A stretch of DNA of 64,000 nt. Origin: Aedes albopictus (lineage: Eukaryota > Arthropoda > Insecta > Diptera > Culicidae). Shown piece after piece: positions 52,160-55,606 of this stretch; within the stretch, counting starts at the first letter, position 1; every line of letters starts with the position of its first letter. The stretch lies in the NCBI RefSeq assembly GCF_035046485.1, contig NC_085137.1, positions 312,739,164 to 312,803,163 on the forward strand, written 5' to 3'. The notes under the pieces were generated by a model that worked only from the letters and a program-made list of their open reading frames with translations, was not told where the DNA came from and searched no databases. The position numbers and the translations under genes were made by a program.

Positions 52160-52308
52160 GGGCACTTGCTGGCTTTGTTTATAGTGTGCCCAACAAACCC
52201 ATTTGATTTAGCTAGGAAAGACCTTGTAACGTGTTTGGCGATACAAACCGTTTTCCAGCAAAATCAAATGATTCTGTTGGGCACAATAAATGAAGCCATC
52301 AAATGCCC
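52160..52308. mobile_element. TA-target MITE, TIR GGGCACTTGCTGGCTTTGTT
   Basis: 149 bp. Left end and reverse complement of the right end (GGGCATTTGATGGCTTCATT) align for ~50 bp through TGTGCCCAACA and CATTTGATTT. TA at 52158-52159 and 52309-52310. Non-coding. Confidence 0.82.
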
Positions 52309-52548
52309 TATATAAGTTATACACTGACAAAAAACTACTGTTTCGAAGTCAAAAGTTATAGACAAGTACCGGGAGACTCCCAGCACACGGTGTGCTGAAA
52401 CATGATTATTATCGAACTTGCATGAACCTCATATTTTTTTTCGTTAAAAGTTAGTATTAACAGTATAGAAATCGATGCTGAAGACTAGAAAATCTTTCAT
52501 CGGGGAAAATTAAAAAAAAAAATCGATTTGAGTATTTTAAGATTTTTC

Positions 52549-52946
52549 CATACAAAATATGTTGAAAGGGAAAACAAACTTACTTTGTCTTTGATCAAAA
52601 CTAGGGGTTTTCAGGAGTTGTTTCAGAAGCAATTATAAGAAAAAAGATCAAGAACTGAAAATTTATCACAAATCTGTATTCGGTGTGCATACAATGTAAC
52701 CAGTCCACTTTGGTATGCCGAATGTCATGCACGAAACCACGTGGTGTCGTTAGGAATATATCGTTCTCCTTACGGATTAAGAAACAAAGAATTTCGTTAA
52801 CGAATAAAAACCGAGGGATGTTTTGTGAATTTTCTATTTATTACTACATACTATTTATTGTAACAATATTTCAACATCTGTTTAAAATCGCATACAACAC
52901 TCTTTCATACAATATGAAGGCTATTGTACGAAACTACACAGTTTAG
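52549..52946 (+). repeat. Left terminal inverted repeat
   Basis: Complement of 55158-55564. Includes GTTTTCAGGAGTTGTTTCAG, TCATGCACGAAACCACGTGG and TTTAAAATCGCATACAACAC. Overlaps the last ~14 codons of the transposase. Confidence 0.85.
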
Positions 52947-55037
52947 CAGTTTCTTCGGAAATTGAAGACTCGTTTTGGGAACTTTGTACTTTTCCCATTT
53001 TTTTGCAAAATCTTTATGTATGGCTTCGGTTGTTTGCTCCGAGAATTTTGCCAATCCAGTTTGCATGCTAGAACAAAACTCTCCAACATGTTGATGTATT
53101 GTGTGGAACTTTGGAGTCCTTGGCAGCTTTGCCAATTTCCAAGCTTCACAAAACTCAATAATGTGTTGCTGGAAGTCATCTTGCAGCTTGGCTCCGAAAC
53201 AAGCATCAACTACCTTCTGTAATCCGTTAAGTACGTATACATATTTCTTCAGGTTTGGGTCTTGGTCGTTTAGGATTTCTCGCTCCGCTTAAAGATTGTG
53301 ACAATGTCTTCCAGTGAACCCGAATTGGGCATGTCGTGTTGCACCTGAAGCTGCCGTCCAGGATTGTGCAATATCATCATTGCATTCAGCAATGCCATTA
53401 TATACTGTATTAACCATTCCCAAGAGCAGGTGTAATGACGGAGGTGCACAGACATCGACAATATTGGTGGAACCGTCCCCGTGAAACAAAGGTGTATTCA
53501 CACAGTTCAAATAGAACTTGGCATTGTTCTTGATCCCCCCTTCGGCGTTCCATAAAGAGCTATTATGCTGGATTGAGTCGATCGTGCGTAGCGTCTTTCT
53601 TATTCACGGTGCAGAAAGCGCATGGGTATGTTGAACTGTTACTCATCACACCTGCGACAATGTTTATAATCTTCAGGTCGCCTTGAAAAGACATATTTGT
53701 TATATTTTACGTTGAATAATTTTGTTATATTTCACGATGAATGCATACCTGTTACAACTGCATCCAGGGTACCAAGTTCCAATTTTTTCCAGATTTTTGA
53801 AACATTGTCGTAGTTTTCTTGGACATTTTCAACCAATGCAAGAATGAAGCACCGTTTTACTCCAGAATCCCTGAACTCTGGCTGACCGGCTTCATAATTG
53901 TTTTCCATATTCAAGATTATCTTCAACGAACCTTGTCCTCCGTCAATCCCTATTAGTATGCGTGCGTCCTGAATATTACGACGATTTTCAACATATGCTA
54001 TCAAGCCATGGACACTTCGACAGAAGATCAGACATTCCTTGTTAAGGTTGCCGCCTGAAGTTGAAAAAAACATTGACTCAACTTCAAAAAAAATATCAAG
54101 TTCGTGTGCGGAACTTGTAAGAAAGCTCTGCAAACCATGCTGTATCGCCACTGATTTCGATTCGCCAAGAGCTTGAGCAAGTTTCCGAGTCTGAAAAACA
54201 ATGAAAAATTAAAAAAAAAACGCATTTTTTAAAAACAAGTCCCACAAACCTTTCTGTGCTCAGATCCAGTTTATTTTGAATTTTCAAGATCTGGTTATGT
54301 GACAGACGCCGCTTTTCCGGATTTTTTTTCGCACTTCCTAGAATCTTTACTTTGGTCGGCTTTCCTCTGGAATTCTTCAAAACTACATCGCCGTTTGGAG
54401 CATTACTGGATCTCAGTGATTGTGCCAGAAGTTTACCGGTATCGTTACCAGCAAGGCGCACTAGATTTTTCTCTTTTGTGTCTTTTGAACAATGATGCGA
54501 TTTCCCTCGATGAACTTCTGATAAGCACTTTGAGCACAACTTAAGGTTGAAATTAGATTTTGGATTTGCTTTGTTTGGCCTTGACTTTGGTTTGCTCACC
54601 GGTTTGCTCAACGGATTTTGGCAGGCCACCGTACACAAATTGCACGTATGTTTCGTTGACGTTTGTCCTCTCGTGACTACCGACGACACATCTTTACTAT
54701 AATCATGTAGTTTTATAGTTTTATGTGGTAGCCCTGATATAGAAAACATATTACTATGCATAATCATTTAAATAAAAAAAAGTTTATTATTACCTTCCGA
54801 CCGCCTGTAGACAACCATGTAGCACTTGGCACACAAAATTTTCGGGTAAATTTCTTCATTATCATTGTAATTAGGCAAAAAGAATTTCACTAAGGTTTGC
54901 TTTACTATGTCATATAGTTTTCTGGGAGATTTAGTTTTACGGAAACACAAGGCGCAAACTAAATTGCGGCAGGTTTCGTGGTCCAGCTTCATGTCCGCTG
55001 CAATCAAGTTACTGGGAGACAATGGGCGTGCAACCAA
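52905..55037 (-). pseudogene. Transposase-like gene, four exons, one frameshift and one stop
   Basis: Exons 55037-54794, 54733-54246, 54190-53746 and 53681-52905; introns of 60, 55 and 64 nt, all GT-AG with pyrimidine-rich acceptors, and the joins keep phase. N-terminus: paired Cys motifs (CRNLVCALC, CAKC), then HTCNLC and LCSKCLSEVHRGKSHHC, likely zinc binding. Core: GIDGGQGSLKIILN (Asp ~53943), DVCAPPSLHLLLGMVN (Asp ~53455), FSEQTTEAIHKDF (Glu ~53026), a possible DDE triad of an RNase H-fold transposase; the C-terminus follows. Lesions: an extra base at about 53588-53596, and TAA at 53289-53291. About 650 residues if whole. Start is ATG 55037; an in-frame ATG lies at ~54992. Superfamily unknown to me. 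Confidence 0.72.
54191..54245 (-). other. Intron 2 of the transposase-like gene
   Basis: A 55-nt intron. A donor GTTTGT five bases upstream would leave the wrong phase; using GTGGGAC (54245) joins TTT to ACT and keeps STERF-TRKLAQAL in frame. The acceptor TTTTTCAG sits in a T-rich tract. Confidence 0.65.
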
Positions 55038-55157
55038 ACCTTTTTTCTTAGATTGATTATTTTATGTTACCATAGTAACGCATACTGTACTGAAAATGGT
55101 TGCCTAAATAATTATTAGCTCAATTGATCAACCTTTAATGTGTCACCTAGTTACAAG

Positions 55158-55564
55158 ACTGTGTACGTAGTTTCGTACAATAGCCTATGTATTGTATGAG
55201 AGAGTGTTGTATGCGATTTTAAACAGATGTTGAAATAATGTAACAATAAATAGTATGTAGTAATGTAGTAATAAATAGGAAATTCACAAACCATCCCCCT
55301 GTTTTCATTCATTAACAAAATTCTTTGTTTCTTAATCAGTAAATAGAACGATATATTCCTAACGACACCACGTGGTTTCGTGCATGACATTCGGCATACC
55401 AAAGTGGGCTGGTTACATTGTATGCACACCGAATACAGATTTGTGATAAATTTTCAGTTCTTGATCTTTTTTTCTTATAATTGCTTCTGAAACAACTCCT
55501 GAAAACCCCTAGTTTTGATCAAAGACAAAGTAAGTTTGTTTTCCCTTTCAACATATTTTGTATG
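55158..55564 (-). repeat. Right terminal inverted repeat
   Basis: Complement of 52549-52946. It presumably carries the promoter-side end, because the gene starts 120 bp inside it at 55037. Differs from the left arm by scattered substitutions and a small ATTACTAC-type duplication. Confidence 0.8.
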
Positions 55565-55606
55565 CAGCAATCGAAAGCATTCAAGTAAAAAGTTATAGAC
55601 AAGTTA

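Follow-up and report, generated by a model that had tools for sequence, protein, structure and literature searches.

A dead, right-truncated transposon in Aedes albopictus, probably of the RAG1/Transib/Chapaev group

The window analysed here, a stretch of 64,000 nucleotides from Aedes albopictus (contig NC_085137.1), contains a transposon remnant at 52386–55564, delimited by comparison of its ends with those of other copies and carrying a single gene on the minus strand. The remnant is probably what is left of a cut-and-paste element, now dead and truncated on the right, that belongs to the RAG1/Transib/Chapaev group of DNA transposons, within the CMCT clade (the EnSpm/Mirage/Chapaev/Transib group) (PMC12730594). 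This reading draws on what was seen of the gene layout, the predicted fold of a relative, conserved residues, element tips, other copies and target duplications. Published systems are cited from portions of the papers concerned, and statements about them apply to those portions.

The left end of the element is marked by the tip CACGGTG (52386–52392, forward strand), located by alignment with other copies and by a tip search in which CACGGTGTGCTGAAACATGATT matched the window once, at 52386, with 0.00 matches expected in shuffles. From here a full-length left terminal inverted repeat (TIR) of ca. 550 bp runs to 52937 (52386–52937, forward strand), defined by its inner arm match and by the 552-bp full TIR of another copy, L015, an element of 3341 bp with TIRs 97% identical. 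The right TIR (55167–55564, minus strand; arm match and comparison with other copies) is without its outer 163 bp. Within the window the inverted repeats appear as three abutting arm pairs, 94–97% complementary, at 52541–52937 and 55167–55572, leaving 398 aligned TIR bases that are 93.5% identical. The right arm breaks off at 55564 and joins other DNA; the window copy is therefore right-truncated, and it lacks a target duplication. The original prediction had set the ends at 52549 and 55564 with TIRs of ca. 400 bp. The long inverted repeats stand, but their length and both ends do not, since other copies run 163 bases further outward, to CACGGTG, which places 52549 and 55564 in the interior. 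End alignment of further copies, the check proposed at the time, thus fixed the tips and the TIR length and yielded no duplication at the window copy itself. A TA target duplication at the former ends (CATA/TATG) was dropped, because the longer copies show that these positions are not ends. Just outside both sides of the element lies a 22-base direct repeat (52346–52367 and 55583–55604, 95% identical), which could belong to a different repeat or be a mark of the right-end loss.

Translation resolves the gene into four predicted exons on the minus strand, separated by GT..AG introns, in agreement with the four-exon gene first proposed, and the motifs quoted with that proposal are present in the window translation. 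Exon 1 (54794–54992) encodes a ZAD-like zinc domain, as judged from translation and predicted fold, with CALC at 54945–54956 and CAKC at 54822–54833. After intron 1 (54734–54793), exon 2 (54250–54733) contains a second Cys/His cluster (CNLC, 54633–54644; CSKC, 54525–54536; SHHC, 54489–54500), whose Cys and His residues are conserved among relatives in alignment, and an RGKP motif (54351–54368). Intron 2 (54191–54249) leads to exon 3 (53749–54190) with the first catalytic Asp (codon 53942–53944) and intron 3 (53682–53748) to exon 4 (52905–53681), which harbours the second Asp (53677–53679), a C(2)C pair (53611–53622), a middle His (within 53418–53444), an H(4)H pair (within 53085–53108) and the catalytic Glu (53025–53027), features of both exons being assigned by translation and conservation. 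The stop codon of exon 4 (52905–52907) falls inside the left TIR.

The gene is broken in three places. The frame is not kept across intron 2, being lost at the exon 2/3 junction when the consensus splice donor is used, while exon 4 changes frame somewhere between about 53560 and 53605 and has an internal in-frame stop at 53289–53291. The intact element implied originally is thus ruled out by both the truncated right end and the broken gene. Stops or frame changes were also found, exon by exon, in the two-ended coding copies L015, L017 and L016/L065; in L065 an insertion of ca. 490 bp (ca. 488–978) sits inside the left TIR.

Conservation identifies the Asp-Asp-Glu (DDE) catalytic triad as D1 in GIDGGQGSLK, D2, the Asp of DLKIIN, and E, the second Glu of SEQTTEAIH, corresponding to residues 312, 378 and 596 of the read-through. 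D2 replaces a different middle Asp chosen in the original prediction, which is not catalytic. In an alignment of 82 rows D1 is Asp in 80, D2 is conserved in 81 of 81 covered rows and E in 71 of 75, while the C(2)C pair is present in 81 of 81 covered rows and the two H(4)H positions in 74 of 78 and 73 of 77. The window copy carries the DDE residues, C(2)C and H(4)H alike. The earlier view holds in these respects: a DDE transposase whose predicted core is RNase H-like, a gene of several exons and TIRs of great length.

Across the 1.34 Gb of genome searched, the inner TIR as query found 14 places, and the outer 156 bases gave 1152 first-look candidates, of which 40 were scored and all 40 matched (10 at 91–100% and 30 at 83–86% identity). 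Among the 14 fetched regions L051–L064, 13 have the outer 150–180 bp in common, at ca. 84% identity, with no match to the window transposase, and some of these also have a 33-base stretch in common; the other region, L059, is a decayed coding copy. TIRs of ca. 467 bp are present in L051, and in eight of the fetched regions stop-to-stop frames reach 136 codons at most. The interiors of L051, L052, L053, L054 and L056 contain short open frames that we take to resemble pieces of a non-long-terminal-repeat reverse transcriptase.

Twelve two-ended elements with ends of the window family were examined, 11 scored by script and L057 read by eye. A duplication of exactly 5 bp flanks 9 of the 11, and none is adjacent in the other two; as a control, mismatched flank pairs were compared, and none of the 110 agreed over more than 3 bp (0 of 110 at 5 bp). 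The tip of L057 is eroded, its duplication reading GGAGG by eye, and L058 adjoins a run of C; with both included, ten duplications contain 32 G or C among 50 bases, against 43% G+C in the window. The existence of these copies, with their TIRs, tips and target duplications, rules out a domesticated host gene. Judging from the shared ends and the duplications, the window transposase or a very close relative may move the abundant non-autonomous elements, which have its outermost 170 bp in common with it.

One set of observations weighs against linking the 5-bp stagger to the window family, in that a clean duplication of 5 bp flanks just one of the three coding copies with both ends. L017 has none, and L015 scores none, with CCTCG on both sides and two extra bases at the left. 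The abundant elements could accordingly be moved by another transposase, of Transib or a different lineage, the 5-bp stagger then not being that of the window family. Only the outer segment described above is common to these elements and the window copy, and the genome holds several further lineages of window-type transposase. Such an origin is nevertheless unlikely: the clean case, L065, is a window-family coding copy with the same tip and the duplication CATTT, and the CCTCG pair of L015 is present, offset by two bases. Two extra bases between apparent duplication and CACGGTG occur at the left ends of L015 (352–353) and of L076, one copy in each family.

The group of the transposase is indicated by structure, by profile and by signature. 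Structure prediction, proposed originally as a check, gave a RAG1/Transib-like fold for a relative of the window protein, which matches RAG1 and Transib structures by a large margin. The Chapaev transposase has been linked to DUF1280 (PF06918) (PMC3985635), and in profile searches the relative P0076 scores above the cut-off for this family and 11 of 56 relatives match at E up to 1, with no match for the window's own protein pieces; a DUF1280 search of the genome gave nothing, as did its controls. The CMCT signature places a C(2)C and an H(3-4)H pair within the DDE core, after the second Asp and before the Glu, and goes with 5'-CA..TG-3' termini in most cases and target duplications of 2–5 bp (PMC12730594). 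Both features are found here, as C(2)C with H(4)H and as CACGGTG..CACCGTG ends, with a 5-bp duplication around 9 of the 11 elements scored. The element had been called unassigned, with a hunch that it was loosely like Transib/RAG1 or Chapaev; the structure match, the DUF1280 link and the CMCT signature confirm the hunch and give the element a named group.

A superfamily of its own, separate from every named one, would be in keeping with the lack of any protein-family or NCBIfam match for the window protein, with PDB sequence searches that returned chance matches only, for the single protein and for a 5-row profile, and with Chapaev descriptions that, in the portions cited, contain neither a ZAD-like domain nor a 5-bp duplication (PMC4411706; PMC4079192). 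Set against the predicted RAG1/Transib fold, the DUF1280 matches of relatives and the presence of every CMCT feature tested (PMC12730594), it is highly improbable. In viral contigs, 41 pattern matches included 0 relatives. A match of exon 1 to the RAG1 importin-binding family (PF12560, E 0.041) was treated as chance because it lies outside the 25 most-matched of 40 families (56 members).

Searching the genome at the protein level yielded 77 matches, several of them free of stops, and led to a related family with the same CACGGTG tip. Its copies L069 (G000:C3:55260000-55264300; open frame of 623 codons), L070 (C3:395163400-395168400) and L071 (C2:161935400-161940200) are 98–99% identical to L070, which suggests recent activity, on the strength of sequence comparison, and would therefore offer a testable enzyme. 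Among 15 two-ended copies of this family the duplication is exactly 4 bp in 10, 3 bp in two, 1 bp in two and absent in one; among 210 mismatched control pairs, two agreed over 4 bp and one over 5 bp. A transposase match overlaps nine of the 15 copies, and seven of those nine show 4 bp. In a tree of 32 rows the window protein groups with a Wyeomyia protein (99/94) and the L070 family comes next (99/96). Of 35 chosen relatives, five that failed to fit a core-motif pattern were left out of the tree, and besides the window protein this genome is represented in it by L070 only, so that a nearer lineage may exist.

These data bear on whether the window element is simply an ordinary Chapaev as defined in print, with its 5-bp duplication a minor variation. 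The likeness includes CAC..GTG termini matching those described (PMC4079192), a DUF1280-related DDE core, as in the relatives (PMC3985635), and a Cys-rich N-terminal zinc region. Furthermore, the 4-bp duplications of the related family (10 of 15) fit the generally 3–4 bp of Chapaev (PMC4079192) and are a hallmark of it, and Chapaev elements are already reported from Culicinae mosquitoes (PMC7728395), which makes the presence of something Chapaev-like in a mosquito unsurprising. However, elements with window ends duplicate 5 bp and not the generally 3–4 bp of Chapaev, a separation drawn from the published description (PMC4079192). The window-family N-terminus looks ZAD-like; that of Chapaev is described as holding a Chapa domain (PMC4411706). 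An ordinary Chapaev is thus a possibility of some weight, though not the favoured one.

Transib, in contrast to Chapaev, has a 5-bp target duplication (PMC8355894), which the elements with window ends have in common with it (9 of 11, and cleanly in one of three coding copies). In the PDB search HzTransib was absent from the sequence matches with E of 10 or less. Transib tips read CACWATG; the window family differs in its CACGGTG tip, its N-terminal zinc domains, its TIRs of ca. 550 bp and its introns. From RAG1 and ProtoRAG (BbRAGL) it differs in that no RING was found and that sequence similarity is not significant; no RAG2-like gene turned up in the element, no search having been aimed at one. 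N-RAG-TP of Aplysia resembles it, by description, as a transposon protein with a region like the RAG1 N-terminus, and differs in being described as made up of RAG1 N-terminal-like sequence throughout (PMC8355894). The exon 1 product resembles, in predicted fold, the ZAD (zf-AD) domain of insect zinc-finger proteins, from which the window family is set apart by the joining of this domain to a transposase. The zf-AD profile matches 13 of 56 relatives with E of 1 or lower, 6.8e-8 being the best value, and not the window's own exon 1 by sequence. Since the CMCT features and Chapaev-type termini are present and elements with these ends have the duplication length of Transib and not that of Chapaev, the element is filed as a variant of the RAG1/Transib/Chapaev group, neither strict Chapaev nor strict Transib.

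As a working model, the transposase would dimerise, aided by its ZAD-like N-terminal zinc domain, and bind the long TIRs. Its RAG1-like DDE active site would cleave the DNA at the CACGGTG tips, probably through a nick followed by hairpin formation, the route used by RAG1 and Transib. Insertion with a 5-bp stagger would then produce the GC-rich 5-bp target duplication.

The family is poorly represented in annotation: among 120 relatives listed, 0 are named as transposase and one is named Protein doublesex. The latter, P0026 of Pseudolycoriella hygida, is a gene model joining most of a window-family transposase to a DM DNA-binding domain, which may reflect a faulty model, an insertion into the doublesex locus or a genuine fusion. 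P0001 of Aedes albopictus (LOC115259282), the named protein that scored highest in the first search, shows 92% identity across 33% of the query; this gene model joins a fragment of window-type transposase to a tail resembling a retroelement integrase. Outside the element, 52182–52288 forms an imperfect inverted repeat (50-base arms, 7-base loop, 76% complementary), perhaps another small element.

Among the literature matches listed (titles and abstract starts, with few subscription papers and no Repbase Reports among them), no paper dealt with a ZAD-type transposase or the window family, and none reported the contrast of 4 and 5 bp. RAG1 is the enzyme that cuts human antibody genes, and how the Transib/RAG stagger and the zinc region at the RAG1 N-terminus arose has long been asked by those who study the beginnings of V(D)J recombination. 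In one mosquito genome, families with 4-bp and 5-bp duplications span the hallmarks of Chapaev (3–4 bp) and Transib/RAG (5 bp), and, sharing one tip, would allow the stagger change to be mapped to residues. A tentative and rather doubtful proposal is that a mosquito clade of ZAD-bearing RAG1-like transposases switched its stagger between 4 and 5 bp while keeping the CACGGTG tip constant; such a clade would link transposition of the Chapaev type to that of the Transib/RAG type in living form, and might hint that the N-terminal zinc region of RAG1 and Chapaev began as a ZAD-like dimerisation domain.
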